Assembly: GCA_030427885.1 (NCBI GenBank)
Contig: JAUICM010000002.1
Coordinates: 186,001 to 250,000 of the forward strand
Reading direction: 5' to 3'
Length of the DNA stretch: 64,000 nucleotides
Source of the DNA: Rhodothermia bacterium
GTDB lineage: Bacteria; Bacteroidota; Rhodothermia; Balneolales; Balneolaceae
Under the pieces are notes generated by a model. That model saw nothing but the letters and a program-made list of their open reading frames with translations, made no database searches and was not told where the DNA came from. A program made the position numbers and the translations under genes. This document shows positions 40,681 through 59,593 of this stretch, piece by piece (the first letter of the stretch is position 1; each line of letters starts with the position of its first letter).

Positions 40681-40721
40681 AAAAACAAAAAACCCACACC
40701 GGCCAGTGACCAATGTGGGTT
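40681..40721 (-). terminator. Terminator of the (now split) tRNA-Met transcript
   Basis: On the minus strand AACCCACA (40714-40721) pairs with TGTGGGTT (40691-40698), followed by TTTTTTGTTTTT. It lies about 33 bases after the 3' end of the tRNA fragment and matches the expected terminator of the original tRNA transcript. Confidence 0.85.
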
Positions 40722-40753
40722 TGTAATTTGTAGCTTGCCTTTAGACAAAAAAG

Positions 40754-40796
40754 TGGGCCCAGAGGGACTTGAACCCCCGACCAATCGATTATGAGT
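40754..40796 (-). other. attR-like scar: 3' half of tRNA-Met(CAT)
   Basis: On the minus strand this reads ACTCATAATCGAT, then a variable loop, GGGGGTTCAAGTCCCTC (T arm) and TGGGCCC plus A (acceptor strand and discriminator; CCA not encoded). That is the anticodon loop with CAT, the 3' anticodon stem, the T arm and the acceptor 3' strand of an elongator tRNA-Met. The 5' half is missing: the preceding CTCC cannot pair with the anticodon stem, and no GGGCCCA lies upstream. The break falls in the anticodon loop, the usual crossover site of tyrosine recombinases. In such insertions the displaced 3' fragment marks the far end (attR), so the element should lie at higher coordinates. Confidence 0.85.
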
Positions 40797-40896: not shown

Positions 40897-42015
40897 CTAC
40901 CCCACCACATTGACCATCTCAAAAATGGGCAAATATAAAGCGATAATAATCGCTCCTATGATCAAACCAATAAATACAATCAGGACAGGTTCAATCACTG
41001 AGGTGAGTCCCTCGACCATGATATCCACTTCTTCTTCATAGAGTGTGGCTACCTGGTCCAGCATTTCGTCCAGGCTGGCTGTTTCTTCTCCAACACTGAT
41101 CATTTGTGTTACCATTATGGGAAAGATCAGACTTTTGTCCAGGGATTTATTGAGACTTTTCCCCTTTCTGATCGAAGAGACCATTTGCTGAACCTCATCT
41201 TCCAGGATCAGATTATTGGATGATTTCTTTAACACATTCAGAGACTCAGAAAGTGTAACTCCACTGTGTAGTAGAGTTGAAAGGGTACTGGTAAACTGGC
41301 TGACAAGGCCTTTGGAATACATTGCACCGAAATATGGGATCTTAAGTTTGAGTTTATCCACCATTCTCCTGCCCCGATCACTTTTCAGAAAGTAATTCAA
41401 TCCAAAACCTGCAATAATCAACCCCATCAGAATGAACAAAATATTCGTGGTAAGGAACTCACTGATATTCAGAATGATCATGGTCGGACCTGGTAGATCT
41501 GCTTCAAAATCCCGATACATATCGACAAACGTGGGCACCACAAAAACTAACAGAAAACTAACTGCTGTTATAGCAACACCAACAATAATTCCAGGATAGA
41601 CCAAAGCCATTTTCACTTTCTGTTTTAGTTTATAGGCCTTTTCCTTGTAAGCAGACAAACGTAGCAATACTTCATCCAACACACCTGAAACTTCCCCCAC
41701 TTCCGCCAACTGTATCGAAATAGAATCAAACACCTGAGAATATCCACCGAGCGCTTTGGAGAGGCTCTTCCCTTTGCTCACCTGCTTTTTGATATCAGAT
41801 ATGATCTCTTTTAGTCTCTTATGGCTGGCTTGCTGAACTGAGGTCTCTAATGCTTTTACCAGCGGAAGTTTCGCTTTCAACATTACTGCCAGATTTCTGA
41901 GAAACTCGATCACTTCTTTTTCCGGGACTTCTTTTATAAAAGGAAGTTTGATCTCTTTTGACAGAAGTCCTTTTGATTTCTGTGGTTTTTGTAAGGTATG
42001 AGGAAGATTTGCCAC
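40897..42015 (-). CDS. gspF: Type II secretion/type IV pilus inner-membrane platform protein (GspF/PilC family)
   Basis: A 372-residue platform protein starting with GTG at 42015. This codon is preceded at good spacing by AAGGA and overlaps the previous stop by one base (TAGTG); the longer frame's TTG at 42045 would lie well inside that gene. Two GspF domains are seen (about 40-165 with GEVSGVLDEVLLRLSAY, and 245-365 with SVGEETASLDEMLDQVA). Three membrane helices are clear (about 135-160, 185-210 and 338-360). The protein couples the GspE ATPase to pseudopilin assembly. It is the last gene of the split secretion operon and lies about 100 bases from the tRNA scar, 15 kb away from gspE. Confidence 0.92.
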   Translation of the reverse strand: MANLPHTLQKPQKSKGLLSKEIKLPFIKEVPEKEVIEFLRNLAVMLKAKLPLVKALETSVQQASHKRLKEIISDIKKQVSKGKSLSKALGGYSQVFDSISIQLAEVGEVSGVLDEVLLRLSAYKEKAYKLKQKVKMALVYPGIIVGVAITAVSFLLVFVVPTFVDMYRDFEADLPGPTMIILNISEFLTTNILFILMGLIIAGFGLNYFLKSDRGRRMVDKLKLKIPYFGAMYSKGLVSQFTSTLSTLLHSGVTLSESLNVLKKSSNNLILEDEVQQMVSSIRKGKSLNKSLDKSLIFPIMVTQMISVGEETASLDEMLDQVATLYEEEVDIMVEGLTSVIEPVLIVFIGLIIGAIIIALYLPIFEMVNVVG

Positions 42016-42491
42016 TAGGGTTTCCTTGACTTCAGAGGTTCCCAAAGGACTGGTTTCCTTGGATTCAGTTTAAACGAAAGAGACAGTTTCCTGGTCTCAG
42101 CTACTTGATATAACTCCCAGTTGATTAGTCGCTGTTCAATAAGTTTATCTGACCATTGAATAATTGAACTGTCCACCTGATATACATTCATCTCTTTACC
42201 ATTCAGCTTTAAATTCCCCATACCCCATTCATAGATTTGTGAAGTATCTTTTAATCGAGAGACTGAGAATGAGGTATCGTCCACGGAAAACTTCTCTGCT
42301 CGTATTAGATCCCTGTATATTTTTTCAGATAGAACCTGGTAATTATTATATGCTTTGATATTACCACTCCAGCTATTCATTTGACGGCTTACAAAAACAA
42401 ACACTGAGCCTGTAACTCCCAAAACAATAGACACAATAGTCAGAGCAATCAAGAGCTCAGCGATCGTATATCCCTCTTCTCCTTTGATCAT
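42015..42491 (-). CDS. Minor pseudopilin, GspJ/PilW-like
   Basis: A 158-residue prepilin-like protein. The N-terminal class III signal is cut after Gly7 (EEG/YTIAELLIAL), leaving Glu at +5 as required, followed by a 20-residue hydrophobic helix. The rest is a small beta-rich head. Its size and position between a GspI/PilV-like and a GspF gene suggest the GspJ/PilW role in the tip complex. It overlaps the previous gene by 4 bases and the next by 1. Confidence 0.8.
   Translation of the reverse strand: MIKGEEGYTIAELLIALTIVSIVLGVTGSVFVFVSRQMNSWSGNIKAYNNYQVLSEKIYRDLIRAEKFSVDDTSFSVSRLKDTSQIYEWGMGNLKLNGKEMNVYQVDSSIIQWSDKLIEQRLINWELYQVAETRKLSLSFKLNPRKPVLWEPLKSRKP
42016..42027 (-). promoter_or_regulatory. 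Ribosome binding site that fixes the gspF start
   Basis: AAGGA lies 7 bases before the GTG at 42015, inside the last codons of the upstream pseudopilin gene, and the stop and start overlap as TAGTG. This supports the shorter gspF start. Confidence 0.75.
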
Positions 42492-42853
42492 TCTTTATAC
42501 CATAATCTTGAAGTCTGAAGTGTAATGACCGGAGCCTTAGTGGTGTCTGATTTGAATACCTTAACCGTTATCTCCCTGAATGAGTCATCTTTTAATACAT
42601 TTCTCATTACCCACCACCGATTTCCAACCCGAGTAATTGATGAAGAATCGTTTTCAGTTGCAAGTACGTACTCCATTTCATTCCTGGCAAGATTAAAACT
42701 TTCCATTTTATCCCGAGCTAACCGGTTATTTGCAGCAAATGTAAGTACCAAAGCAGAGGGTACCAGTACCGATAACAAAATAGCTAATGCAACTAATGAC
42801 TCCACTAAAGAATACCCACCTTCGTTAGTCGATATTTCATTCGCTAATTTCAT
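42488..42853 (-). CDS. Minor pseudopilin, GspI/PilV-like
   Basis: A 121-residue prepilin with a leader cut after Gly13 (EGG/YSLVESLVAL, Glu at +5) and a hydrophobic helix. The short head contains LARNEMEYVLA, as in GspI/PilV proteins, where AR.... follows the helix. It overlaps the neighbouring genes by 4 and 17 bases, a translationally coupled set. Confidence 0.8.
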   Translation of the reverse strand: MKLANEISTNEGGYSLVESLVALAILLSVLVPSALVLTFAANNRLARDKMESFNLARNEMEYVLATENDSSSITRVGNRWWVMRNVLKDDSFREITVKVFKSDTTKAPVITLQTSRLWYKE

Positions 42854-44183
42854 ACCAGTCCAGAATAGTATATTTAGCAGAATCAGTAAAGCCGATTGGA
42901 AGTATAAAATTTTCAGGGCGTTGGCTAACGTCTATAGTTACATCTTTTAGCCAGTTAACGTATGTGGTTGGTGACTCATAAAAATAAAACTGATAGGTCA
43001 TTGCAGTTCCGAGAATCTTACCACTCAGCTCTGTTTGGCCATTGTTATAGATACTTCCTCTAACTATTGCGTTGGTATCTATTTTCACTTTAAGAAATTC
43101 CTGAGTAAAACCCGAAGGCCGAAACGGATACACAACAGTTCCATCTATAACTGCATCACCTGTTATATTGATTACTTCTTTAGCTCCTCCTTCATAGGTT
43201 TCCTGAGATGAAAATACTAAGCTCGGGTATTCCAGATAAGCATTATCCCTTACAACGATATTTCCTTCAGAAAGGGCCTGGGTACTTACCGATACTCCAC
43301 CCCCGATCTGAAGTGATTTACCCGCATATAGAAGAATATTTTTACCCGTTACAGATCCACCAACCAATAATGTATCAGAAACGATGATTTTGGTGAACGG
43401 TTTGAAGGTGTAATTCCCATTTATTGTAAAATTTCCGTCTACAATGATCACCAGATCCATAGGCATGGTAACAATATTTCTCTCAATCCATTCTGTATCT
43501 TCTTCATAGTACAGGGTGTCTCCCGTTTTCAGGTTTTTTGTTACTTCTCCCCGGTAGTTGGTCATAAAACGCCTGATCTGAGGACTTGACCTTATATTCT
43601 TAAACTGGTCAAACTGAAGATGAAAAATTTCTGTTGAAAACTCCGGGAAAGTGGTATCTGCATCAAAATGTCTTTGATCTCCTGAAAAATTCCCCCGAAA
43701 TGGTATTCCTTTAAAACCAGACTCCCGGATACCTTCCCCGTAGGTGAATATATTTCCATTAAGCAGTGTAGTTCCTGTTAAGGTAATGTTGGATGTTGAA
43801 TCTCCAAGCAGTACCGCACTTTTATACAAACCTCCGGATTTATCCCCTGTTAACACCCGAACCTTTCGGTTCCGGCCTGATACTGAACTTTCGGAAGTAA
43901 TATCCCAAAATCCACCAAAGGGTTTAACGGTTAGCGAGTTTTCTGCATCTATCTTGTAAATTCCTTCATGAACAGACGCTGTATTCTTGCGAAGAAATTT
44001 ATAGATATTTGCTTCTGCCTGGTACAGCGCTTTGGTAGAATTAACATCCCGCTGCATAAATTTCATTTGAACCCTGATCCCCAGGAAAATACCTCCAATC
44101 AGTAACAGTATGATTGTGGAAATAACAAGCACAGTAGAGAGTGCTGAGCCATGCTCTTTTGATATTATTGATCTGACTGACAT
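42837..44183 (-). CDS. PilX/GspK-like pilus assembly protein with large beta-rich head
   Basis: A 448-residue protein; the ATG at 44183 is preferred over the TTG at 44252. A basic start and HGSALSTVLV plus a hydrophobic helix (about 10-38) replace the canonical leader and lack Glu at +5, as in GspK/PilX-type proteins. A QAEANIYKFL segment follows. The remaining 390 residues are beta-rich with serial short strands (INGNYTF, KIIVSDTLLVGGSV, NILLYAG, GDAVIDG), which looks like a right-handed beta-helix and is unusual for this family. It is the first gene after the Rhs/immunity insertion and overlaps the next gene. Confidence 0.65.
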   Translation of the reverse strand: MSVRSIISKEHGSALSTVLVISTIILLLIGGIFLGIRVQMKFMQRDVNSTKALYQAEANIYKFLRKNTASVHEGIYKIDAENSLTVKPFGGFWDITSESSVSGRNRKVRVLTGDKSGGLYKSAVLLGDSTSNITLTGTTLLNGNIFTYGEGIRESGFKGIPFRGNFSGDQRHFDADTTFPEFSTEIFHLQFDQFKNIRSSPQIRRFMTNYRGEVTKNLKTGDTLYYEEDTEWIERNIVTMPMDLVIIVDGNFTINGNYTFKPFTKIIVSDTLLVGGSVTGKNILLYAGKSLQIGGGVSVSTQALSEGNIVVRDNAYLEYPSLVFSSQETYEGGAKEVINITGDAVIDGTVVYPFRPSGFTQEFLKVKIDTNAIVRGSIYNNGQTELSGKILGTAMTYQFYFYESPTTYVNWLKDVTIDVSQRPENFILPIGFTDSAKYTILDWYEISE

Positions 44184-44463
44184 CGTTGAAAATACAAAAA
44201 TGCACCCCTTATTAAGAACATATTTATCAGGTACTTTTGGTGTAAAGGTCAACTAACCTGGATTGTTCTACGACCTGTATATCGCATCATCTTTGGTCTC
44301 GTTTTAACTATGAGAGAGGCTTCCCAGCCCTAGGCTAAAACCAAATTCTCTTAATTATTTACAACAGGGTGTATTTTTTAGGCAGAGCCTCAGGAAGTAT
44401 TCCGTAGCAGAGCTAGGCGACTAACTAGAAGAAGAGACTCTCTTAGTTCATCAGCTTAGAAAT
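44184..44463. other. Intergenic gap between immunity gene and pilX-like gene
   Basis: 280 bases without a gene. It holds only short hairpins (AGGC-AGA-GCCT near 44381; GGCT-TCCC-AGCC near 44321), neither with a U-tract. It probably marks the far boundary of the inserted Rhs pair and should hold any promoter for the downstream pseudopilin/gspF genes, but none is recognisable. Confidence 0.4.
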
Positions 44464-44889
44464 TTAAACTCCTACCAAAGGATATTGACTCATATTACCC
44501 TTGAGGTCCTTATAAAATTTTTCCAAAGAAAGAATATCGGTACTAAATTGAAATTCAAGTTTTCCACTCGTTTCAATGACGGCTACACCTTTTATTAGGA
44601 TAACCCCACTTTTTTGATTCTGTAAAAACAAATAAATTCCTTCTTCCATAGTCGTGAATTCTACTTTATCTATATCGTTATTATAAAAACTAACTAGTTT
44701 TTCTAAAAAAGCTTGGATTTCTTCAACTCTTATGTTTGTAGCATAAGCCACCTTTATTCCAAGTAACTCTAAATAAATCTCTGCTTTTAGCCAATTCCCA
44801 TCCCAATAGTCATTTGTATTAGGATTTTCCCTACCTAATATTTTAATTTTTAAAGTGGCATTCTCACCAACTAATTTAATTGTATCCAT
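44464..44889 (-). CDS. WapI-like immunity protein
   Basis: A 141-residue acidic cytoplasmic protein with no signal peptide. Its pattern of NDYWDGNWLKAEIYLELLGI, a helix (IRVEEIQAFLEKLVSFYNND) and a closing strand and helix (KLEFQFSTDILSLEKFYKDL) resembles the WapI family of immunity proteins found beside YD-repeat toxins. It lies 9 bases after the Rhs gene on the same strand, the standard place for the antidote. Base composition is clearly more AT-rich than the Rhs core. It should neutralise the C-terminal toxin domain of the Rhs protein. Confidence 0.72.
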   Translation of the reverse strand: MDTIKLVGENATLKIKILGRENPNTNDYWDGNWLKAEIYLELLGIKVAYATNIRVEEIQAFLEKLVSFYNNDIDKVEFTTMEEGIYLFLQNQKSGVILIKGVAVIETSGKLEFQFSTDILSLEKFYKDLKGNMSQYPLVGV

Positions 44890-44898
44890 AAATATCTT

Positions 44899-47800
44899 TT
44901 ATTGAGTTACTACTGTAATTATATCTCCAACAGTATTAGTAACAACCTTCAAATTATCTTTAAAAAATACTGTTGTTCCTTGTGTATTGCCCGGTATACT
45001 TCTTGTCGCATTATTTATGACATCTAAAACTACACTCGGAGAAATAACACCTCTTGATTGCATTTGATCTAATGCATGACCTGTAAATTTAACTCCATCA
45101 ATTACCTTCGGAACGTTTTTAGTTAACAACCTAATTGGTTGGCCAAGTCTTCCAACTGGAATTGCATACATACCAGCATTTAAAGCCGCTTCCCCAGGCT
45201 TTCCTTCCATCAAAGGAAGCATGACATCACCTACAGGCAGTTCTCTTGTTACCCCATATATCCCTTCTACTTTCTCCCCGTGGTCTTTTAAATCCTGTAA
45301 TATCGCATTGGCTGCCATCTTTCGTTCTTTCGGCTGGTCTTTTTGCGCCTCTTCGCTGAACTGACCTACATCTATTTTAAGGTTTACTTCGTCAGAGCTT
45401 GATAAAATAAAACCAATGAACTCGTTCAACTGGCACCACCAGTCCCCTTTTTCACACGGATCCATTCCGGTGGGATCGATAAAATTCACCGGGTTATTAA
45501 AAGAGTACGAATACGGAGACCATCCCGGATAGCTATCGTGATGTGGATCAATCTGTATGAACCCTCCTAGAATAGGATCGTAATTTCGGGCATTCATATA
45601 ATCAAGAGTAATACTTGCCTCATCATCTCTTTCATGCCCGGTAAATTTGTAATTATCTGTTGGGTTTGAGCTATTAGAAGATCTTCCCGGCATAACCATT
45701 CCAAAGGGGTAATAATCATCATAGCCATCCACATTCCCACTTTGGTCTACAGTGGTTCTCACGCTGCCTAAATGATCTTTTAAGAAGTAACGCCGCTGGC
45801 TGCCATCATAAGTCCCAATTATCCCTCCTGAAGGAGACATAATATTTACAAATGCCAAGTCACCATCTTCAAAGATCCCAATGGTCTGTCCACTGGCATC
45901 TCTTACATAATGAGTTTGCACTCCTCCTGCTACCTGCTTCTTCACCCGTTTTCCGGATCCATCATAGGCATATTGCAGGGTTGTTCCTCCTTTCAATAAT
46001 TGTGAAGGCAGATTCCTCCAATCGTACGCTGCTCCAGTTAGACCTTGCACTTCATTTGATTTCATATTCCCATTGGCATCGTAGCTTAGGTCAAGGTAAC
46101 CGAAATCACTCAGGTCCAGTATCTCAGTCACTTGGTTCCCGCTACTGATCGGTAAATCCAGATTTCCCACGTTATTATTATACGAACCACTCTGATTCTT
46201 TCTGGTAAGACCGGTCATATTTCCATTCTTATCATAGCTGTATGTTGCATCAAAGGCCGTGCTACTATATCCGCTACCAGAAAACCCTGCTGAAGTCAAC
46301 CGGTTGGCATTATCATACCCGTAACTGTAGGTCAAGGAGTTTGTATTAGCAGCTCCCGCCTGACGCCATAATTGTGAGCTTATGTTTCCATTATAGGAAT
46401 ACCCCAGATCCATTCCGAATTTATCTCCGGAGGAAATCGCTCCGTTATTGATCTTATCCAGCCAACCCTGAACCGTATAGGTATAATTCACAGTCTGAGC
46501 TGGAGTATTTCCGAGCAGCAATGTTTTTACCTGCCCATCAGCCAAATAGCTCGTGTATTCCGCTTCGGTTTGCCAGGTCGATCCATTGGTACTTGACTCT
46601 ATTTCTGCCAGGCGTCCGAGCCCATCGTAACTATACCGTTGGTAAAACTGTTCGCCACTTACTCCTCCCTGGAAATCAACCTGAGTCACCCGGCCTACTT
46701 CATCATACTCATATTCAATCGTTTTATGATACAGTCCAGGCGCATGTTGCACTACCCATTTTACCGCTCCCATCGAATTATAGGAATACCAGGTTTCACC
46801 CCAGCTGCTACTGGAAACACTCAGGTCCCGATATTCTATTTTAGATATCCTTCCTTTCATATTCACTGGAGATGGTACCAATCCACCTGAGTAAGCCTGA
46901 TCCCCGTCGTAATAGTACTTAGTATTTTCCTGGTTGTCCGAGGTCGGAAATGTTTGTGAATCCGGATTAGCGGCGCTAAAAGAAGTACCTGCACCCGAAT
47001 ACACTCCCTCTTCAATAACCCGATCCAGATCGTCATATTTTATGTAGCTATAAAACTCGTAGGCATCAAAAGAAAAGGTACCTTCAGTAAATAATGCAAA
47101 TTCACTCGGGTCTGATTCACCTACAAACTTGTAGGTACCAGCATCAACTTCTATAGTATGAACGGCAGAACCACCAGAAGAGCTAAAAGACTCGTCTAAA
47201 ATCAATTGCCCTGTTTGAATATGCCTTACCGAATAAGTATAGCCATCAAAAAAAAGATCATTTACCTCGAAATCTATGGTAAGTTTTCCGGGACCTGTTA
47301 CAATTAAAGTCTTCTCTAAATACGTTTCTTCTTCACTATCCAAACTGGTAGATAAATCGCTGCCACTTCCCATCTCTTTATGGTTGGGCTGTTGGGTAAA
47401 CCGTAACCGGCCTTTCTTATCATATTTATACTCTTCGGAATAGGTCTGATCGGGCAATTTTTTGGATGTAAGCTGTCCTAATGTGTTATAAGTATATGTG
47501 GTTGCAAGCGCCCTTGGGTCTTCCACACGCACCAGGTTACCCCTCAGATCATAGGCAAACTCCGTGACTAAATCTCCTCCAGTTGATCTGGAAAGTTGTC
47601 CATTTCCATTCATATCTACCCCACTTGCAATGGTCTGCCCCCATCCATCGGTATAGGTAATTGTTTTTTTACCATCCTGGTCCGTAGTAATGGTCTTACT
47701 GAGTTTGTTGGCAGACCAGGATTTTGCCGGTATTCCAGTCTGAGAGCTTGTTGCAAAAGTTTCGGCAGTATTTAACCCATAGGTTGTAGTATTTACATGC

Positions 47801-50800
47801 CCCTGACCGTATCGGTGATCATCGCCTGGTAACGTTTGTTGAACAGGTCGCGCTAAAGGACTTTCTTCATATTTCGTATAGGAATAAGCAAAATCATCGT
47901 CCACTCCCACTCCGACTATAGTTCCATAATATTCAGAAACAGGAGAGTCTGTTCCTAACCCACTTGAACTCTCCGGATCAAAACTGAGGCTGGTACCTTT
48001 AAATAAATCCTCGAGAAAAGTGTTCTGGTTGGATTCTTCTATAGGACGGGATACCGTGGAGGGAAGACCACGAGCATTATACAAGGTACCCCCCAATATT
48101 GTTTTACCTCCACCACGTTGTTGGGATTGCATCTCACGTCCCAAACCATCAAAATAGCTTACTGACTCAATGCCCCCATAAAGCTCATCTACTTCTGTTG
48201 AGTTTAAGGTCCGATTAAATACTTTTACTCCGGCAATATATCCTTCAAAGTCACCCCAATCCCCGTTGGAAGGTCCATCTCCCGGTCTGGCAATCCCTAT
48301 TGACAGAGGAGAACCACCACTTCCAGCTAAATTACTCTTCCATTCAGTCCACGTCTTTTTAAGCTGACCATCGATATAGAGTTTTGTTTGATCGGCACTT
48401 GCACTGTAAGTAAGTACCAGATGATACCAAGTATCATTCTTTATTCCAGCATTGTAGCTGCGACGAGTGTCCTCTGTACCACTTCCGGTATCCATATACA
48501 GTTCTACATTTGTGCCTTCAGTTCCAATTTCCAAATTATCATTAGATGCACTTGAGGACTGTGCAACCAAAATATTATTAACACTATGATTCGTATCATT
48601 CGATCCTCCAGAGTGATTTACTTTACGGTTAAACCACAAAGAAATCGTAAAAGCACTGGCCGCATCCAATTCGTTAACATCTCCAAAAGACACATAATCG
48701 TCATCCCCGTCGAAATAATTAACTTCTTTATTCCATTCAATGACATCATCCGGAGCAAGTGATCCCGAAATAGTACTAGAAATATAGTTGGGGTCTGAAT
48801 CATCAAAACTCCCATTTCCTACAACTGAATAATAGTAGTCTGTCTTTGTTGCTGCACCTAGTTGAGTAAAACTATGTGAGAGGCGATGAAAACTATCATA
48901 ACCATAAGCAAGGATTTTTTTATTCTCGTCTTTCAAAGACTCCATTCTACCATATTTATCATACCGAACTTCCGAAAACAGGTCGTCACCACTACTAGGC
49001 CTTACCCCTCCTGATATAGCATCTTCACTACCATTTACCTTTTGTATTCCTGTAAGAAATACACCATTGAGCCCATTTAAACTCTGATAATTAAAAGGCT
49101 GAGTATTCGATCCATAAAAATAAACCGTTGCATTTCCATTGCCGTCTAAGACTTCTTTAATATTTCCATAGTCATCATAACCTACTACCTCTGCTAATTT
49201 TTTCGAGTTTGAAGTACTTGGCAGATCAGGTGCTGTAGTAGTACCCGACCAAGCCCATTTTTCTTTGACTAACCAATTATTATTCATAGGCCCCGAATGA
49301 CTTTTGCTCCATATAGTCCAGGATTTACTTAAATCATTATTAGATCCATCTTCCAATAGAACGGAATAAGGTTTAGCAAACATGTAATCATCTTTCATAT
49401 CCTGCATATAATCATAATCATCATCGGCCTGATGTCCATATAAAAAACTAGTCTTCCTTACTTCGCTATTTGAGTTTGTCTCAGTCTTTGAGGTTAGTTG
49501 ATATATATTATTGGTAACATTTGTATTAGCATAGGTATTAGTTACAGTTGAATTCACTGAGGAACCACTACCTTCAAATAGCTTGGTTGTCGTAGACTTC
49601 GGATACATGAAGTACGATTTATACTGGAAATTTTTGCCTTTATAAATCTTTTCATTCGTAGGTAAAATTATTTGCTCAACTGTTACTTCGATACCCCAAA
49701 CATCTCCAACTAAATAATCAATGTGATCGAATTCGTAAACATGTGTTGTTTCGCTTATTTTTTTTGGAGTCGTAGAATTATCATATGCCTGAGACTTCTC
49801 TACCTGACCTCTCTTATAGCTGCTCAATTGCCGACCCGTCTGTACGCTATGACTCAGGTCATAAGTATTAAAACCTGTCTCATTTCCACTCCCTTCGTAA
49901 ATAATTTCTTTAACTTCGTCATAAGCAGATGATGAACCCATAGCTGTTTGCATGGATGAGCTTCGAACAACATAATCACAAGCAAGAGGATCGTCATCTA
50001 ATTCAATTTCATCCTCTGTATACACACTATATTGATAGGGCAGGAACAATTCATCTCCCTTTACATTATAGCCACTCGACCTTGTTGGGTTCTGATCTTG
50101 TTTGTACTCATATTCCCTGATGATATCATTTGATGATGACATCCCATCATGTTGGGTAATTTTCTTAATTCTTAATCCTCCAAGTGTTTTATTGCCAGCA
50201 CTTTCAACTGCACTACCAGACCAGTAATAATCGTTAGCCTCGTACTCAAATTGTGAATACCCCCCGGTTGGATAAGTAATTTTATCCATAGTACCATATT
50301 TAGTATACGTACTATTAGGTGCTCTATCTGCCCCGGAAAGAGTTCCAAATGTCACATTTGTAACCTGAGGGATTAGATCTGTATTAGTAGCACCATTGTA
50401 GTAACCCCAGTAATCAATATTGTAAGTATCGTAATCTGGAAAATTTCCCATTCCGCCGATATATGAAAATTCATACGGAGCCATATCAACTCCATCAGCA
50501 TCCTGTATTCCCACGTTTTCTAAAAACCTTGAATCTGTGCTATTGTAATCTAAAATAACTTTTTGAATTACATCAGAAGTAGATACCTGTTGAACCTCAA
50601 TCGATTGAAGCTGACCATAAATCACATTTCCGGATCCGGTACTTAGTGTCTCTGGGTCAACATCAAATATTAGTTTTTCCTTCGCTGTTGTTATTTGCGA
50701 AGGGAAATAGGTATACGTAGTGTTTTTTGTAACAGAATATGTGATGTCCTCTGATACAGCACAAACTGGTGCCGATGCATTATAAAATTGATTAGTCTTT

Positions 50801-51639
50801 GTCTTATTTACAAAGACTTCAAATTCAACCGGAGATGTTGTTTGTGTATAGGCAATATTAATCTCATCATCAGTAGAAAGATCATGAATTTTAGTAAGAT
50901 ACCAAGATGATACATAAGAGAAAGCCGGGGGAGGAACTTGTGAGCCTTGCCCGGATTTACTTAAGGTGGTTGAAGTTGACTGTTCTTGCTGAGCAAAAGT
51001 GTATTCTATCCCATTGTCATTAGTTACCTTAAAATAGGTAAATGCCCCTCCTGATATTTCATAGTCCACTTTTAAATTCTCATGCGGATACTTTAAAACC
51101 GGACCTGCAGCATCATCGATCATAAAAGTAGCCGATAACCCAGGTGCACTTATCGTAAATACATCCGGTTCAGGATCTAATTCCCAATTATATGCTTTGT
51201 CATAGTAAGTTTGTTCATCGTAAAGGCCATTAGCCAGACTATCTGCAGCTGAACCAGTATTTTTGTATCCAAGAGTAGACTCATCCGGCAGGCCATACAC
51301 ATTCCTTGTAATAACTCCTGTATTTAAAGACCAACCCAGTCCAACCCAACCAGGAATTTCCCTTGGACGTACACCCGAGGCATGGTAACTCAGAGTTAGT
51401 GGAAAATTCAAATGCCTGCTTTGAACATCATAAACCGGTACAGAAATCTGAGGAACACCTGAAGAATAACTAACGGGGATTTCAGAAAATTTTGCCATTG
51501 AAGCGGCAGTAGGAGATGGAAACGCTACATTAAATGTTGATTCAGATTGGGTATTACCCCGCCCCTGAGCTTGCAAAGCCTGAGGAATAGTGAGAAAAAG
51601 AAGAAGTATTAATGGTAGACTGGTCTTTATTGCTTTCAT
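44899..51639 (-). CDS. Rhs/YD-repeat polymorphic toxin with LamG domain and DUF4258-like tip
   Basis: A 2,246-residue protein starting at the ATG at 51639, which directly begins a Sec signal peptide (ends ALQAQ); an ATG 11 codons upstream is less likely. Order: N-terminal SpvB-like/YD shell; a LamG/concanavalin-like domain (about 975-1160, YFDGDDDYVSFGD ... FEGYIAGVKVFNR); more YD repeats; the Rhs-associated core (about 1945-2060, LKDHLGSVRTTVD, YDPILGGFIQIDP, DPTGMDP); then a variable tip. The last 75 residues (GHALDQMQSRGVISPSVV ... VVTNTVGDIITVV) match DUF4258, proposed to be an RNase-like toxin fold. The antidote gene follows at once. It sits inside a secretion/pilus operon. No PAAR or VgrG is present, and the Sec signal argues against type VI delivery. 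Confidence 0.9.
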   Translation of the reverse strand: MKAIKTSLPLILLLFLTIPQALQAQGRGNTQSESTFNVAFPSPTAASMAKFSEIPVSYSSGVPQISVPVYDVQSRHLNFPLTLSYHASGVRPREIPGWVGLGWSLNTGVITRNVYGLPDESTLGYKNTGSAADSLANGLYDEQTYYDKAYNWELDPEPDVFTISAPGLSATFMIDDAAGPVLKYPHENLKVDYEISGGAFTYFKVTNDNGIEYTFAQQEQSTSTTLSKSGQGSQVPPPAFSYVSSWYLTKIHDLSTDDEINIAYTQTTSPVEFEVFVNKTKTNQFYNASAPVCAVSEDITYSVTKNTTYTYFPSQITTAKEKLIFDVDPETLSTGSGNVIYGQLQSIEVQQVSTSDVIQKVILDYNSTDSRFLENVGIQDADGVDMAPYEFSYIGGMGNFPDYDTYNIDYWGYYNGATNTDLIPQVTNVTFGTLSGADRAPNSTYTKYGTMDKITYPTGGYSQFEYEANDYYWSGSAVESAGNKTLGGLRIKKITQHDGMSSSNDIIREYEYKQDQNPTRSSGYNVKGDELFLPYQYSVYTEDEIELDDDPLACDYVVRSSSMQTAMGSSSAYDEVKEIIYEGSGNETGFNTYDLSHSVQTGRQLSSYKRGQVEKSQAYDNSTTPKKISETTHVYEFDHIDYLVGDVWGIEVTVEQIILPTNEKIYKGKNFQYKSYFMYPKSTTTKLFEGSGSSVNSTVTNTYANTNVTNNIYQLTSKTETNSNSEVRKTSFLYGHQADDDYDYMQDMKDDYMFAKPYSVLLEDGSNNDLSKSWTIWSKSHSGPMNNNWLVKEKWAWSGTTTAPDLPSTSNSKKLAEVVGYDDYGNIKEVLDGNGNATVYFYGSNTQPFNYQSLNGLNGVFLTGIQKVNGSEDAISGGVRPSSGDDLFSEVRYDKYGRMESLKDENKKILAYGYDSFHRLSHSFTQLGAATKTDYYYSVVGNGSFDDSDPNYISSTISGSLAPDDVIEWNKEVNYFDGDDDYVSFGDVNELDAASAFTISLWFNRKVNHSGGSNDTNHSVNNILVAQSSSASNDNLEIGTEGTNVELYMDTGSGTEDTRRSYNAGIKNDTWYHLVLTYSASADQTKLYIDGQLKKTWTEWKSNLAGSGGSPLSIGIARPGDGPSNGDWGDFEGYIAGVKVFNRTLNSTEVDELYGGIESVSYFDGLGREMQSQQRGGGKTILGGTLYNARGLPSTVSRPIEESNQNTFLEDLFKGTSLSFDPESSSGLGTDSPVSEYYGTIVGVGVDDDFAYSYTKYEESPLARPVQQTLPGDDHRYGQGHVNTTTYGLNTAETFATSSQTGIPAKSWSANKLSKTITTDQDGKKTITYTDGWGQTIASGVDMNGNGQLSRSTGGDLVTEFAYDLRGNLVRVEDPRALATTYTYNTLGQLTSKKLPDQTYSEEYKYDKKGRLRFTQQPNHKEMGSGSDLSTSLDSEEETYLEKTLIVTGPGKLTIDFEVNDLFFDGYTYSVRHIQTGQLILDESFSSSGGSAVHTIEVDAGTYKFVGESDPSEFALFTEGTFSFDAYEFYSYIKYDDLDRVIEEGVYSGAGTSFSAANPDSQTFPTSDNQENTKYYYDGDQAYSGGLVPSPVNMKGRISKIEYRDLSVSSSSWGETWYSYNSMGAVKWVVQHAPGLYHKTIEYEYDEVGRVTQVDFQGGVSGEQFYQRYSYDGLGRLAEIESSTNGSTWQTEAEYTSYLADGQVKTLLLGNTPAQTVNYTYTVQGWLDKINNGAISSGDKFGMDLGYSYNGNISSQLWRQAGAANTNSLTYSYGYDNANRLTSAGFSGSGYSSTAFDATYSYDKNGNMTGLTRKNQSGSYNNNVGNLDLPISSGNQVTEILDLSDFGYLDLSYDANGNMKSNEVQGLTGAAYDWRNLPSQLLKGGTTLQYAYDGSGKRVKKQVAGGVQTHYVRDASGQTIGIFEDGDLAFVNIMSPSGGIIGTYDGSQRRYFLKDHLGSVRTTVDQSGNVDGYDDYYPFGMVMPGRSSNSSNPTDNYKFTGHERDDEASITLDYMNARNYDPILGGFIQIDPHHDSYPGWSPYSYSFNNPVNFIDPTGMDPCEKGDWWCQLNEFIGFILSSSDEVNLKIDVGQFSEEAQKDQPKERKMAANAILQDLKDHGEKVEGIYGVTRELPVGDVMLPLMEGKPGEAALNAGMYAIPVGRLGQPIRLLTKNVPKVIDGVKFTGHALDQMQSRGVISPSVVLDVINNATRSIPGNTQGTTVFFKDNLKVVTNTVGDIITVVTQ

Positions 51640-51764
51640 TTTCGAGTATGCAAAATTGGTATTTATTAGCATTTAAGTACAAGCTAAATGCAAAATTTTC
51701 ATACTAGATTTAAAGCTTTAAAAAAGATTTCTCAAGGTCTTAACAAAATAATATTGTAGTTGAA

Positions 51765-52403
51765 TTACTTAGATATAAAATACTCCATTAAGATAGTGTA
51801 CTCTGCGATTATGTAAACAAGTAGAATAAAAACAGAGATAGGAATTTTTGAATTTTTTGAAATTTTTTTGGAAGCAATCCCAATTATTGAGAGTAAACCT
51901 CCAGTAAGCAATGAGATATAGATAACTAATCCAATATCCCATCCGATAATAAGTGGGAGTACAGAAAAGAGTTTTATGTCACCCCAACCAAAAGCTGTTT
52001 TTCCCCAGAATTTTTGTGTAATAATTTGGATTATAAAACCTGCCCCAAATATCAAACATGAAATCATGCCCTTGTTCCATTCAGATTGGATTGCAACTAT
52101 CAATATTCCAACCAACAGCATACCCAACACCAGTTTATTAGGGATGATCTTCGAGTACGTATCTATGACTGCCACAAACAAAAAGAGTTGCTCAAAGATA
52201 ACCAGTAGCCATTCTGTATCATCTGACGGAGATCTAAACAGAACCCAGACCGTATTGAGTATTGTGGCAAGAATGGCTACCACCCATTTAATTTTCCCGG
52301 AGCCAATTGGAGTGATATTCTTAGATAAATATGTTGGTCGAAAAATGGATACAAAGCTAAGGATACCGCCAACAACCAATCCTTCTATGGCCTGGACTAT
52401 CAT
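51765..52403 (-). CDS. Prepilin peptidase (A24 family, peptidase domain only)
   Basis: A 212-residue polytopic membrane protein with about six helices. Both catalytic aspartates of the type IV prepilin peptidase family are present: Asp81 in VAVIDTYSKIIPN and Asp142 in GWGDIKLF (the GxGD motif). The N-terminal cytoplasmic methyltransferase half with its zinc cysteines, found in PilD/GspO, is missing, so this form should cut leaders but may not methylate. It lies 6 bases after the major pseudopilin gene. The Rhs gene begins 126 bases later on the same strand. Confidence 0.88.
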   Translation of the reverse strand: MIVQAIEGLVVGGILSFVSIFRPTYLSKNITPIGSGKIKWVVAILATILNTVWVLFRSPSDDTEWLLVIFEQLFLFVAVIDTYSKIIPNKLVLGMLLVGILIVAIQSEWNKGMISCLIFGAGFIIQIITQKFWGKTAFGWGDIKLFSVLPLIIGWDIGLVIYISLLTGGLLSIIGIASKKISKNSKIPISVFILLVYIIAEYTILMEYFISK

Positions 52404-52409
52404 TGTAAA

Positions 52410-52841
52410 CTAGTCCGGAACTACTTGCTCCACATTACCCTCCTGATCCACCTGCCATTTATTGAATACCCCGTCGTTGTCGAAATCAATAATGGAGGTA
52501 GCAGTTGCTACATACGCGTTTGGACCTGCGCTTTCCACTTCAATAACATAACGGGCCTTCCCTCCTTCCGTGATCATTTTTTCATGCTCAAAACCCAAAG
52601 TTTCAAAATCAGAAGCATAGATGTCATGTTCCAGATGATATACTTTCTGAAGAGTATGTAGGAAAGCAAGCTGGGTCTTTGCTTCCGTGGTTTTAGCCCT
52701 TGTAGTTACATTCTGATATAAGGGGACAGCAATCATTATCAGGATCCCGATAATAGCTAATACGATAAGAAGCTCGGTTAGGGAAAACCCATCTTCATCT
52801 TTATAGATCTCTTTTATCCAGGTATTCATAATTTTTCTCAT
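52410..52841 (-). CDS. gspG: Major pseudopilin/pilin, GspG/PilE-like
   Basis: A 143-residue prepilin. The leader is cut after Gly18 (DEDG/FSLTELLIVLAIIGIL, Glu at +5). The helix continues as MIAVPLYQNVTTRAKTTEAKTQLAFL, typical of GspG/PilE. The C-terminal head contains DFDNDGVFNKWQVD, an acidic calcium-like loop as in GspG proteins. It overlaps the upstream PilP-like gene by 4 bases (ATGA). This is likely the main subunit of the (pseudo)pilus. Confidence 0.9.
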   Translation of the reverse strand: MRKIMNTWIKEIYKDEDGFSLTELLIVLAIIGILIMIAVPLYQNVTTRAKTTEAKTQLAFLHTLQKVYHLEHDIYASDFETLGFEHEKMITEGGKARYVIEVESAGPNAYVATATSIIDFDNDGVFNKWQVDQEGNVEQVVPD

Positions 52842-53296
52842 TCTAGTGTTAGAGTAAATTTCTTCTTGTTAAATCCAATTATTACCGAGTCTGTAGAAAC
52901 TTCTTCAATAGTGATTTCTGAATTCAGTTTCTCTCCTTTCCCAAGTATGTATGTTTTACCTGCCTCATCTGAAATCGCAGCCATTCCATCAAAAATTCCA
53001 GTCAGCTTGAGCGCTGGCAATTCCAGCTCCTTTTTCTTGTTTTCTTCAATTACACTAACCTCTTTAGCAGGCTTCTTTGTATTTGAGAATGGATCCCTTC
53101 CGTTAGATTTATATTGATATACTGCTTTCTCCGGAACCACCAGATCAGAGAGCTGTACTTCCTCTTGTTTCTGTATCGCCACACCTTCGTTTCCACTGCT
53201 CAATTCTGAAAAACTGATGAAATTGATCCCCCATACAATGGCAACAACTCCACCTAATAGTACTTTCCCCAATGTTGTTTCCAGAAATTCTTTCAT
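52838..53296 (-). CDS. PilP/GspC-like assembly protein
   Basis: A 152-residue bitopic protein with one N-terminal helix (about 10-30) and a periplasmic homology-region-like domain (about 93-152: LKLTGIF.G.AAI....G.TYILGKGEKL...ITIEEVSTDSVIIG), the pattern of GspC/PilP proteins that connect the inner-membrane platform to the secretin. The middle is charged and low-complexity. Overlaps of 4 bases on both sides place it firmly in the operon. Confidence 0.75.
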   Translation of the reverse strand: MKEFLETTLGKVLLGGVVAIVWGINFISFSELSSGNEGVAIQKQEEVQLSDLVVPEKAVYQYKSNGRDPFSNTKKPAKEVSVIEENKKKELELPALKLTGIFDGMAAISDEAGKTYILGKGEKLNSEITIEEVSTDSVIIGFNKKKFTLTLE

Positions 53297-53841
53297 GAGG
53301 ACTCCCTTAGTAGAATAACCTCAAGCCTGAGTTCTCCTTCCAATATTGTAATAGAGCTTTCACCTCCGAGGCTTTCAAGATCGATAGACTGTATTCTGAG
53401 TACCTGCCCTTTTTGTTCTATCTGATTAATGAACCTGGCCACGCTATGATACCCACCTCTAAAATTTATCTCCAGCCCCCGGTTAGTATATTTCCCGGAT
53501 GACTCAGAGGCCAATGGTTGCACTTTATTAATGCTGACATAATTCGATTGAGCAGCTTCATATAAGCTTTCTATCACGTTCGAGAATTCTTCCTCCGTTG
53601 CCAGTTCAACGTACATTTCATCCATTCGCTCATCCAGAACACCTCTGGAGTGCTGCAGTTCATCCAGCTTTTCTTTCCAATCCCCCATGTACTCTATCTG
53701 TTCACTCTGAACCTTTAACACACTGTATTTTTCATATAAGTCAGCCACATATGGCAATACGATAAATACTAATACTCCACTAAAAACCAATATCATGGCT
53801 CCCGATATCACCTTCCATATATGTTTATATGAAGTTTTCAA
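53293..53841 (-). CDS. PilO/GspM-like assembly protein
   Basis: A 182-residue bitopic protein: one N-terminal helix (about 10-32), a coiled-coil segment (about 36-75) and a small ferredoxin-like periplasmic domain (FSNVIESLYEAAQ...VSINKVQPL...INFRGGYHSVARFINQIEQ), the standard layout of PilO/GspM. It overlaps both neighbours by 4 bases. In the family it pairs with PilN/GspL in the inner-membrane platform. Confidence 0.78.
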   Translation of the reverse strand: MKTSYKHIWKVISGAMILVFSGVLVFIVLPYVADLYEKYSVLKVQSEQIEYMGDWKEKLDELQHSRGVLDERMDEMYVELATEEEFSNVIESLYEAAQSNYVSINKVQPLASESSGKYTNRGLEINFRGGYHSVARFINQIEQKGQVLRIQSIDLESLGGESSITILEGELRLEVILLRESS

Positions 53842-55274
53842 TTTGAAGTAGTATAGATTAAGAGTTCAAATTTCAGGATCTGACTAACATATTCTCTGTC
53901 TTCTGGTTCTATCCTTTCCGAAAGGAGCAGGCTAACGCTTTCAACCTCATTACGACTCTCGAGACTACTCAGAAATCTGGTAACAGCCCGCTCATTCGTT
54001 GCCTCCCCCTTCAGTACCATTTCTTTTCCGTTATTTGCACCTAATCTCACGTTCAGGTCTTCCACCCAAACCTGTTCAGGAATGGTTTCTGCAATAAGCT
54101 GAAACAGATAGGCGAATGATTCCCTATCACTGATCAAGTTCTTTGCTTCCACAAAAGAGTCTTTCATCTGTATTAACTTCTGCCGCTCTTTATTTACCAG
54201 TTCAATCTTGTCGCCAATGGTTGCCATTACCTGATTACTTTCTACCAACTGATAGTCAACTACTTTTGAAAGAGCATACGTCAACAGCCCAAATATAATG
54301 AGTGGTACAAAAAGCAGAACTCCCAGTCTGAGAGTTTCTTTCTTGTCATGTTCTTGGACTGCATCTACCTTGGCTTCTTCTGAAATAACATTAAAACTGT
54401 CTATTCCCTGGAAAAAGAACTTAACCAAAATACCTGTGGACAAGGAATATGCTCCTTCCAGTGCATCGAATCCTTTCTTTCGTTGCAATGGGGATAAAGA
54501 ATTTAACTCTCTTCCCGATCCAGTATCCTGTACCCTCAAAGCAGCTTGAGAGATAGAAGTATAAACAAGCATTCCATCCGAATTAGTGTCCTGCTTTGAT
54601 TCTTCAGATAAAAGACAGGACTCTGCCTGCGTCCACAGATACTCCATTGAATCCGACTCTGGAGCAACCAGAGAATAGAAATTGAATATCAGGCCGTTTT
54701 TAAAGACAGTCAGTTGATACTCATTATTTATTATCTCTAGTACTGCGGAATACCCCTCTATAAACTCAGGATTGAATATCTGTGAATATCCTGATTCAAA
54801 AATACCTGTACTTATTACCTCCGGATACAAACCAGCCTTATGTAATACAGCCAGATATAAATCCCGCTTCTCCTGATCGATTACCTGAAAAAGACATCTT
54901 TTACTGTCTTCTCCGATATCAATTAAATGGGACTGAATTAGTACATTTTCTTTACCCGCTGTAAGCTCTTTACTCTTTGAGTCTAGCCATTTATCTATTT
55001 CTTCGGCCTCTTCGAAATAGGGCAGCTCTTCAATAATAACCTCAAATAGTAGCTCAGGTATTACTACAGCAATGTGATACGCATCAGACTCAACACTTTC
55101 TTTCAATGCCTCTAATTTGGAAATTAGTGAGGCTTCACTTCCATTGTGAGCTACTTCATCAAAGCCCTTTAACGTCCACTTTTTCCCTGAGCGGTCAACC
55201 TCCACCCAACGGATGAGTTCATCCGTAATCTCAATACCTACTGCGGTATGTTCCAGAAAGGGAACTTTGATCAT
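53838..55274 (-). CDS. PilM-PilN fusion (GspL-like) platform protein
   Basis: A 478-residue protein that joins a cytoplasmic actin-like PilM domain (about 1-240, HTAVGIEITDELIRWVEVD at the start) to a PilN-like part: one transmembrane helix (about 310-330, LGVLLFVPLIIFGLLTYALS), a coiled coil and a periplasmic ferredoxin-like domain (about 375-478). This is the layout of GspL in type II systems, where PilM and PilN are fused, and supports a type II or hybrid machine. It follows the secretin gene by two bases. Confidence 0.8.
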   Translation of the reverse strand: MIKVPFLEHTAVGIEITDELIRWVEVDRSGKKWTLKGFDEVAHNGSEASLISKLEALKESVESDAYHIAVVIPELLFEVIIEELPYFEEAEEIDKWLDSKSKELTAGKENVLIQSHLIDIGEDSKRCLFQVIDQEKRDLYLAVLHKAGLYPEVISTGIFESGYSQIFNPEFIEGYSAVLEIINNEYQLTVFKNGLIFNFYSLVAPESDSMEYLWTQAESCLLSEESKQDTNSDGMLVYTSISQAALRVQDTGSGRELNSLSPLQRKKGFDALEGAYSLSTGILVKFFFQGIDSFNVISEEAKVDAVQEHDKKETLRLGVLLFVPLIIFGLLTYALSKVVDYQLVESNQVMATIGDKIELVNKERQKLIQMKDSFVEAKNLISDRESFAYLFQLIAETIPEQVWVEDLNVRLGANNGKEMVLKGEATNERAVTRFLSSLESRNEVESVSLLLSERIEPEDREYVSQILKFELLIYTTSN

Positions 55275-55276
55275 GC

Positions 55277-57292
55277 TTATTGATCTACACTTAATTTCAT
55301 GTCATCACGAAGCTGGTTCCAGCGGTCGTCGTCATTCCCATCGCCATAAAACACATGGGGAGTTATAAATATCACCAGCTCAGATTTGATCTGGCTTGTT
55401 TTCTTATTCCGGAATAATCTACCCAATAAGGGGATATCTCCAAGAATAGGAACTTTATTGATCGTCTCTGATTCACTTTCCTGAATCAGTCCACCTAGGA
55501 TAATAGTTTCCCCATCTTTGAGTCTTACGGTAGAATCCAGAACCCGACTGTTTATAGTGGGAGGAATATCCGGACTAAGCGTACCTACGGGTGTATTAAA
55601 CTCGGGATGTACTTCTACTGTTACATCTCCAGAGGCACTAACCCATGGAGTTATTTCGAGCAACACATTTGCCTGAATTTCTTCGAACCTTTGTGACTCC
55701 TGAGTTACAATCTGGTTAGGGGATTGCAAAGGAGTTGTTGAGGTAAGCAGGTAATACTGAGTGGTACCAATTTCTATACTTGCTTTATGCCCGTTTAATG
55801 TTGAGATCTGCGGACGGGATTTTACTGTTACCAGTCCATCCTGATCGAGCGCCTGAATCTTAAAAAAGAAATTAGATGGCAACCGCCCGAGATTTTTAAT
55901 TCCAAACAGATCTCCACCACTTGTAAATGCACTATTTAAATCAGTTCCATCCCCTTGTATGGTTAACCCTCCGCTTTGATCAGCACCCTGACCAAACAGT
56001 ACTGTAAACGGATTAAAGAAACTACTATCAGGAGATACTCCTTTGGCCAGAGACAGCCCCAGTTGATACATATCCGAAGTATTAACATCGATCACAAGCG
56101 CTTCGATCATGATCTGAGGGGTTGGAAAATCAATCTCACGTACAAAATTTTCCAGCTCCACGATCACATCATTGGTACCTATTACCATTAATCCGTTTTG
56201 TTCTTTGATCACCTGTATATTAGCGTCTTTTTTCACTGGCTCGGGAATCAGGTCAATCACTACATCAGAGCGGATATGTTTGAGCCTGATCAGTTTAGTA
56301 GTGGCTATACCGCTGGTGTTCTTATCACCTATGATATACATGGAACCTTCTTTCCTATACGTGAACGAAGTATTTCTAAAGATATAGGTAAGTGCCTGAT
56401 CCATATTCAGATTATTAGCTTTTGCTGTGATGGTTTTTTCAGGAAGACCGTAGGTGATCATACTTACCTCACTCTGATATCCAATCTCTGTGATGACATC
56501 AGAGACATTGGCATTTACCACATCCAGTTCGATTGAACCATCTTTCACTGATACCCAAAAATTAGATCCTTGTGCATCTCCGTCACCTGATGCAAAACCA
56601 AGTCGGTCTACAATGTATATTCCGTCCTTCTCCCTTAGTGAGAACCCATTGTTCGATAAAATTATATTCAGTCCGGGTTCCAATTCAACCTGACTTAAAA
56701 ATCCACTTAGGTTCCCACGCACTCCATTTCTGATAATCAGATTTCTTCCCGTTTTCAGTGATATCTCCCGGACAAATCTGTTGAGCTCTACGTCCTGAAG
56801 GTCTAAACTCAATTTACCCTCCTCATAACTAATAACCGGCTCGATTATCAATTCCTGGGGCTCAGGCACTATATATTTCCCGACCCTAAAAACCTGACCT
56901 GACTGCTTTAGAGAAAATCCGTATTCCTGACATATGAAAATCAGGACTTCCATTACAGATACATTTGAAAGTCTTAGTGTGATCTGCCTGGTTAAATCGT
57001 TGTCCACAATCAAATTCAGATCATATTGTCGTCCCAAAGCACGAAGGAAATCTCTTGCTGCAATATTACTGACATTTAAGTTCTCCACTTTGACTTTGGA
57101 AGAAGCTGGGATTGCAGACAGGTCCACCTGTACAATTGTAGTATCAATTATGGATTTGAGGTAAGTACTTAGTGAGTCTCTTTCGGTTATCCCTGAACTA
57201 TCTACCTGCACTGGGTTGATATCCTGAGAAAAAGAAGCTACCGGGAGTAGCATAACCCATAACAAAATGATTCCGCATATTTTAGCTTGCAT
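55277..57292 (-). CDS. gspD: Secretin (GspD/PilQ family)
   Basis: A 671-residue outer-membrane secretin with a signal peptide (ends ASFSQ). Three or more STN/N-domain-like periplasmic repeats (about 60-320) are followed by the secretin barrel core (about 400-655): VTVKSRPQISTLNGHKASIEIG, the VRLKDGETIILGGLIQE signature and KVPILGDIPLLGRLFRNK, ending LVIFITPHV. It forms the outer-membrane gate. It lies 71 bases after gspE and two bases before the PilM-N gene. Confidence 0.95.
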   Translation of the reverse strand: MQAKICGIILLWVMLLPVASFSQDINPVQVDSSGITERDSLSTYLKSIIDTTIVQVDLSAIPASSKVKVENLNVSNIAARDFLRALGRQYDLNLIVDNDLTRQITLRLSNVSVMEVLIFICQEYGFSLKQSGQVFRVGKYIVPEPQELIIEPVISYEEGKLSLDLQDVELNRFVREISLKTGRNLIIRNGVRGNLSGFLSQVELEPGLNIILSNNGFSLREKDGIYIVDRLGFASGDGDAQGSNFWVSVKDGSIELDVVNANVSDVITEIGYQSEVSMITYGLPEKTITAKANNLNMDQALTYIFRNTSFTYRKEGSMYIIGDKNTSGIATTKLIRLKHIRSDVVIDLIPEPVKKDANIQVIKEQNGLMVIGTNDVIVELENFVREIDFPTPQIMIEALVIDVNTSDMYQLGLSLAKGVSPDSSFFNPFTVLFGQGADQSGGLTIQGDGTDLNSAFTSGGDLFGIKNLGRLPSNFFFKIQALDQDGLVTVKSRPQISTLNGHKASIEIGTTQYYLLTSTTPLQSPNQIVTQESQRFEEIQANVLLEITPWVSASGDVTVEVHPEFNTPVGTLSPDIPPTINSRVLDSTVRLKDGETIILGGLIQESESETINKVPILGDIPLLGRLFRNKKTSQIKSELVIFITPHVFYGDGNDDDRWNQLRDDMKLSVDQ

Positions 57293-58706: not shown

Positions 58707-58745
58707 AAAACAAGAATGATTTTTTAATAAAATTACTCATTCTTG
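58707..58745 (-). terminator. Terminator of the AT-rich four-gene operon
   Basis: On the minus strand CAAGAATGA and TCATTCTTG form a perfect 9-bp stem (58711-58719 with 58737-58745) followed by TTTTAGTTTG. The stem includes the stop region of the last gene. It separates this operon from gspE. Confidence 0.75.
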
Positions 58746-59578: not shown

Positions 59579-59593
59579 GTTGATATATGTACT

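Follow-up and report, generated by a model that had tools for sequence, protein, structure and literature searches.

A 64,000-nt stretch of DNA (bases 186001–250000 of the 665-kb contig C4, hereafter "the window") contains the 3′ part of a tRNA-Met gene without its 5′ half, which raises the question of whether this fragment is the scar of an integration event and, if so, what kind of element it delimits. The original prediction had interpreted it as an attR scar and had placed an intact tRNA-Met(CAT) gene at the other end of an element at higher coordinates.

The fragment lies on the minus strand, which refines the earlier description. Its first 44 nt correspond to positions 32–75 of tRNA-Met(CAT) and thus retain the final base on the 5′ side of the anticodon stem together with the anticodon loop, the T arm, the 3′ acceptor strand and the discriminator; they are followed by 5 T. 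A terminator hairpin with a 15-bp stem is found 3′ of the fragment, at 40722–40690 (z −2.87). All parts that had been named, i.e. the 3′ part of tRNA-Met and the downstream terminator with the 5′ half gone, were seen in the window. ARAGORN called no complete tRNA in the window, and a pattern search for the fragment allowing up to 3 mismatches yielded one occurrence in the window and none in shuffled sequence. An Rfam match to tmRNA at the fragment (E 0.076) was rejected as spurious. Matches to phage records were uninformative with regard to origin, since among the matches listed the query coverage was confined to the tRNA portion.

An intact tRNA-Met(CAT) gene is present at C4:257197–257271, on the same strand as the fragment and at higher coordinates. 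The two have 49 identical bases in common (ACTCATAATCGATTGGTCGGGGGTTCAAGTCCCTCTGGGCCCACTTTTT, window 40796–40748, minus strand), in direct orientation and 30,444 bp apart, and this block begins with the final base pair of the anticodon stem. The predicted partner thus exists, at a distance of 30.4 kb; its 3′ half matches the fragment and the polarity is as foreseen. The exact identity of the shared block had also been foreseen; its size had been underestimated, about 43 bases having been claimed and 49 bp being measured. The features at this end are as follows:

40690–40722, minus strand, native tRNA-Met terminator with a 15-bp stem, parted from its gene by the element; a homologous terminator lies directly 3′ of the intact tRNA-Met in the relatives G016, G010 and G027
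40748–40796, minus strand, attR core, a direct repeat of 49 bp made up of 44 nt from the 3′ part of tRNA-Met(CAT) and 5 T, identical to C4:257240–257192 within the intact tRNA-Met locus
40797–64000, in-window part of the integrated element, between the direct repeats; the element extends to C4:257240, 7,240 bases past the window end

Judging from these sequences, an element of 30,444 bp very probably sits site-specifically in the 3′ part of a Balneolaceae tRNA-Met(CAT) gene. Its GC content is 37.3%, compared with 41.9% and 44.6% for the flanks, and all genes from the integrase through attR are on the minus strand. A tyrosine recombinase had been expected beside the intact tRNA-Met, and one was found 215 bp from it, with the catalytic residues R, K, HxxR, H and Y in that order. 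After the recombinase come a 243-aa gene, an 85-aa gene weakly matching excisionases, and two relatives of phage O-type replication proteins. The integrase and the cargo on its side are:

L039:10803–11981, minus strand, tyrosine recombinase of 392 aa (Phage_integrase E 3e-31), 215 bp from the intact tRNA-Met
61014–64000 (whole gene L039:2014–8061), minus strand, 3′ part of a 2015-aa TPR-repeat protein (TPR matches) that runs past the window
60095–61021, minus strand, 308-aa protein without family match in the searches run
59594–60094, minus strand, AIG2/gamma-glutamyl cyclotransferase-like protein (PF13772)
58733–59578, minus strand, Hypoth_Ymh protein (PF09509; weak HEPN-like PADLOC matches)

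The integrase would act on a circular form, recombining it at the anticodon region, and excision would be aided by the excisionase-like 85-aa protein. No relaxase or conjugation families were found among the element proteins scanned with Pfam, and no terminase, portal, capsid or tail genes among the element proteins, whose phage-type members are confined to the integrase and the Xis-like and O-like replication genes, so that the element is classified neither as an integrative and conjugative element nor as a prophage. Because no conjugation, relaxase or virion genes were recognised, its mobility probably depends on outside help, and it is with such help that it probably transfers between cells. 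Relatives of the integrase were not found in viral contigs or plasmids, so that neither a phage nor a plasmid version of the element was detected. No long repeat common to the two inner ends was found, leaving arm-type integrase sites unlocated. A PADLOC search of the cargo on the integrase side recognised none of the known defence systems and yielded only the weak HEPN-like matches of the Ymh protein. The TPR-repeat protein (2015 aa) and the 308-aa, AIG2-like and Ymh genes (58733–64000 and L039:2014–8061) could represent an unrecognised defence module.

Between this group (the gene for the TPR-repeat protein and the three small genes) and attR lies the second part of the cargo, which encodes a secretion machine. 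Toward attR, the gene order is ATPase, secretin, PilN, PilO, GspC-like protein, major pilin, prepilin peptidase, RHS protein of 2257 aa, WapI-like immunity protein, 471-aa pilin-like protein, two minor pilins and platform protein, followed by attR:

57364–58533, minus strand, assembly ATPase GspE/PilB without N-terminal region (T2SSE E 3e-144)
55277–57292, minus strand, outer-membrane secretin GspD/PilQ (Secretin E 1e-46; matches solved GspD and PilQ secretins)
53838–55274, minus strand, PilN/GspL-like protein (PilN E 6e-7)
53293–53841, minus strand, PilO/GspM-like protein (PilO E 1.6e-10)
52838–53296, minus strand, GspC-like protein (T2SSC E 3e-5, just below the cut-off)
52410–52841, minus strand, major pseudopilin, GspG/PilA-like (IV_pilin_GFxxxE above the cut-off)
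51765–52403, minus strand, prepilin peptidase PilD/GspO (Peptidase_A24 E 3e-12)
44899–51672, minus strand, RHS protein of 2257 aa, between the prepilin peptidase and the immunity gene
44464–44889, minus strand, immunity protein of a WapI-like family (PF24716 E 8e-18, above the cut-off)
42837–44252, minus strand, 471-aa candidate large minor pseudopilin in the GspK/PilX position, without Pfam family, conserved across clusters and a marker of the machine
42488–42853, minus strand, minor pseudopilin, GspI-like (T2SSI E 3e-4, below the cut-off)
42015–42491, minus strand, minor pseudopilin, H/J-like (N_methyl motif)
40897–42045, minus strand, GspF/PilC inner-membrane platform protein (T2SSF E 3e-57)

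The component set of a type II secretion system (T2SS) is present, i.e. secretin, ATPase, platform protein, pseudopilins and prepilin peptidase. The matches to GspD, GspE and GspF are all under the NCBIfam cut-offs, the models for PilB, PilQ and PilC score slightly higher, and the alignment of the ATPase begins at position 108 of the GspE model and at position 180 of the PilB model. Thus, the machine is not a canonical T2SS as defined by curated cut-offs and a full-length GspE. A retraction ATPase PilT was not found among the element genes. The structural model of the 471-aa protein has a long N-terminal helix and a beta-rich domain, at low confidence (pLDDT 57.5). The so-called T2SS of Bacteroidetes branches with the type IVa pili (Denise et al. 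2019, PMC6668835), and the machine fits this group in scoring slightly closer to the pilus proteins PilB, PilQ and PilC and in having an ATPase without the N-terminal region.

The RHS protein comprises a Sec-type signal peptide (by inspection), a laminin-G-like domain, DUF6443, RHS repeats and an Rhs core at residues 1987–2070 (TIGR03696, 62.8 bits, cut-off 32.5). The core is followed by a variable C-terminal tip of about 187 aa, which is a toxin candidate. The downstream gene is assigned to the WapI-like immunity family with a score of 65.4 (cut-off 27), so that the locus has the architecture of RHS polymorphic toxins, i.e. Rhs core, C-terminal tip and downstream immunity gene. For the tip, no known toxin family scored above the cut-off (best DUF4258, E 0.008), and no sequence relative of known structure was found.

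This arrangement suggests a route of export. The signal peptide would take the RHS protein to the periplasm, and the T2SS-like machine would move it over the outer membrane to the cell surface or the medium, where the C-terminal toxin would act on competitors. The immunity gene would protect the carrier and reward retention of the element. A survey of polymorphic toxins gives T2SS as an export route for many RHS toxins (PMC3482391). Gene content and order indicate that the T2SS-like machine may well export the RHS protein.

For comparison, we analysed the surroundings of machine homologues in other genomes. The same layout, with the RHS gene between the prepilin peptidase and the 471-aa gene, occurs in six other Balneolaceae genomes (G023, G066, G078, G005, G081 and L155; in G081 and L155 at contig ends), and in G010 the cluster tail is seen at a contig end. 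Balneola sp. EhC07, a culturable strain, has the cluster. The more distant G084 and G105 have uninterrupted machine genes with RHS genes just upstream, and looser neighbours outside the order also have nearby RHS genes. In G146 and a few distant clusters on short contigs, no RHS genes were seen. Within the order, the secretin is present in 8 of 129 genomes; RHS core genes occur in all eight of these and in 23 of the 121 others (Fisher p 5e-6, a value that ignores shared ancestry). The host genome has a single RHS core, that of the element. The machine lies between proven att repeats in the host genome only and at other loci in the other genomes.

These distributions bear on the strongest alternative, according to which the element is real but the RHS gene merely happens to adjoin a machine that secretes other proteins, e.g. 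polymer-degrading enzymes. A related cluster of Cytophaga hutchinsonii is required for cellulose use (PMC5553014), and RHS genes occur in machine-free genomes too; both points favour this alternative. However, a chance association is at odds with the finding that in most clusters found, distant ones and two Persicobacter plasmids among them, the machine has RHS genes within or next to it, and that all RHS cores of G000, G010, G078, G084 and G105 are located there. We regard the unrelated-neighbour explanation as a serious but less likely option. The wider generalisation of the export reading, i.e. that a pilus-derived T2SS-like machine of Bacteroidota is dedicated to the export of RHS toxins, has the toxin-immunity cassettes inside its cluster and spreads as a unit on tRNA islands and plasmids, is plausible but tentative.

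Several other loci have features of their own. Plasmids CP012864.1 and CP012857.1 of Persicobacter sp. JZB09 (L217, L218) carry distant machine homologues, each flanked on at least one side by RHS genes at a distance of up to about 15 kb. In G078, a different integrase (30% identity; G078:C8:68622–70096, L133:17622–19096) is located between tRNA-Met and the T2SS-RHS cluster; a second att repeat was not found within the 80 kb examined. On the same contig (L134/L144), the interval between the prepilin peptidase and the 471-aa gene is filled by about 27 kb of RHS genes and orphan tips, an array that resembles a store of exchangeable toxin tips. At G066:C1:3291159–3291620, the T2SS-RHS cluster of G066 starts 0.8 kb from a tRNA-Asn gene, and a degenerate second copy of tRNA-Asn, perhaps an older scar, lies between the two. 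At the tRNA-Met/hisF locus of G010 (C50; L143:5349–6695), a ParE-type toxin-antitoxin pair lies between the locus and the T2SS-RHS cluster tail, and the corresponding locus of G025 (C21; L215) has an RHS remnant; neither has a host-type integrase nearby.

Unoccupied sites reveal which end of the element is native. In an empty-site alignment with G016, G010 and G027, their intact tRNA-Met directly precedes the homologue of the fragment's terminator, and the latter was therefore assigned to the native tRNA flank. In the host genome, the terminator 3′ of the intact tRNA-Met is a different one (z −5.9), which must be element-borne. Upon integration, the element brought a replacement 3′ half and a new terminator to tRNA-Met, so that the gene remains whole, and the original 3′ half and the original terminator, pushed away, form the fragment in the window. 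The upstream side of the empty site rests on hisF, which is 5′ of tRNA-Met in G010 as in the host genome, and on the AMP-binding gene and hisF, which are both shared with G025. The downstream side rests on the terminator match, because the flanking permease, sigma factor and FecR genes show no synteny in the relatives compared.

The empty sites also address a second alternative, i.e. that the T2SS-like cluster was ancestral beside tRNA-Met and was captured later by a smaller element. The unequal GC content within the element, 33.6% at the integrase end versus 39.9% at the T2SS end, is compatible with a later capture, as is the situation in G010, where the same tRNA-Met/hisF locus has the cluster tail 1.2 kb downstream. 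In G010, however, tRNA and cluster are separated by the native terminator, and the cluster has the opposite orientation, while in the host genome it is the cluster that separates the tRNA from the native terminator, as would be expected of element-delivered DNA. This order of events is unlikely.

The element belongs to a family. Integrase homologues were found in 25 of 146 relatives (E 1e-60 or better). In the clade around the host integrase, 14 of the 16 members adjoin tRNA-Met and one adjoins tRNA-Asn, while other integrases in that search adjoin tRNA-Arg. Five relatives (G024, G019, G011, G039 and G043) have an intact tRNA-Met and a 3′ fragment 31–49 kb apart, and their shared block starts at the same base as in the host element or 1 base earlier. 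It comprises 44–48 identical bases in G024, G019 and G043 and is diverged in G011 and G039. None of the five has the secretion machine, and the cargo differs in those checked. The sister element of G024 (L101/L102, G024:C37:208147–241526) carries BREX genes as well as CBASS-type E1/E2/JAB and patatin genes, and that of G019 a type I restriction system. The sister elements of G011 (L107/L108), G039 (L109–L111) and G043 (L112–L114) are 38–49 kb long at tRNA-Met; that of G011 encodes proteins of 1183–1326 aa without PADLOC matches, possibly new systems. The tRNA-Arg-linked integrases (L086–L100) nearly all have a gene like the 85-aa excisionase-like gene, and a close integrase relative at tRNA-Asn (L077) may indicate a shift of target.

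Decay of duplicated tRNAs is common, yet a pseudogenised duplicate or an assembly artefact instead of an attachment scar is extremely improbable in view of the exact 49-bp repeat, the integrase by the intact copy, the native terminator displaced to the fragment, the matching crossover in five other genomes and the location of both ends on a single 665-kb contig. A closely related genome with the same truncated tRNA and no element was not found among the relatives examined. The attR reading is borne out by the repeat, the integrase and the empty sites of relatives, and it is near certain that the fragment is the attR scar at the far end of the element.

The exit route of the many signal-peptide-bearing RHS toxins of Bacteroidota is an unsettled question on which the cluster bears, and Denise et al. 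(2019) raised the possibility that the "T2SS" of Bacteroidetes arose from type IV pili and is a secretion system in its own right. With machine, RHS toxin and immunity gene on a single mobile element, both questions become directly testable. In addition, a family of elements with one crossover base and swappable cargo (BREX, CBASS-like, type I restriction, secretion machine) is a ready hunting ground in an understudied group for defence systems and weapons that are new.

Comparison with known systems showed that the attR scar is a textbook case of an established class, the Islander tRNA islands (PMC4383910). The tRNA and the displaced 3′ fragment form the end repeats, a tyrosine integrase is near the intact, regenerated tRNA, unoccupied sites exist, and the crossover is anticodon-centred (Islander site class A); the terminator supplied by the element and the T2SS-RHS cargo set the island apart. 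A Balneolaceae island of this type was not found in the open-access literature searched, and literature searches on Balneolaceae secretion and T2SS-linked RHS operons (mainly open-access, few subscription journals) gave nothing direct. A tRNA island with a complete T2SS-like machine and a built-in toxin-immunity pair, as predicted here, thus appears to be undescribed in the open-access literature searched. The toxin resembles the RHS polymorphic toxins (PMC3482391) in its signal peptide, RHS core, variable C-terminal tip and downstream immunity gene, but its gene is physically within the gene cluster of the machine. By gene set, the machine is like that of Cytophaga hutchinsonii (chu_3191–3201; PMC5553014, PMC6668835), with secretin, ATPase, platform protein, divergent pilins and prepilin peptidase, and like other Bacteroidetes T2SS it is nearer to type IVa pili than to the proteobacterial T2SS. 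In contrast to C. hutchinsonii, its genes all point the same way in a single cluster, which is located on a mobile element and encloses the genes for an RHS toxin and its immunity protein. The mobile elements of Bacteroidales that carry type VI secretion systems (PMC4714493) likewise bring together an antibacterial secretion machine and the genes for toxins and immunity proteins, whereas the element described here is a non-conjugative, tRNA-targeted island with a T2SS/pilus-type machine.
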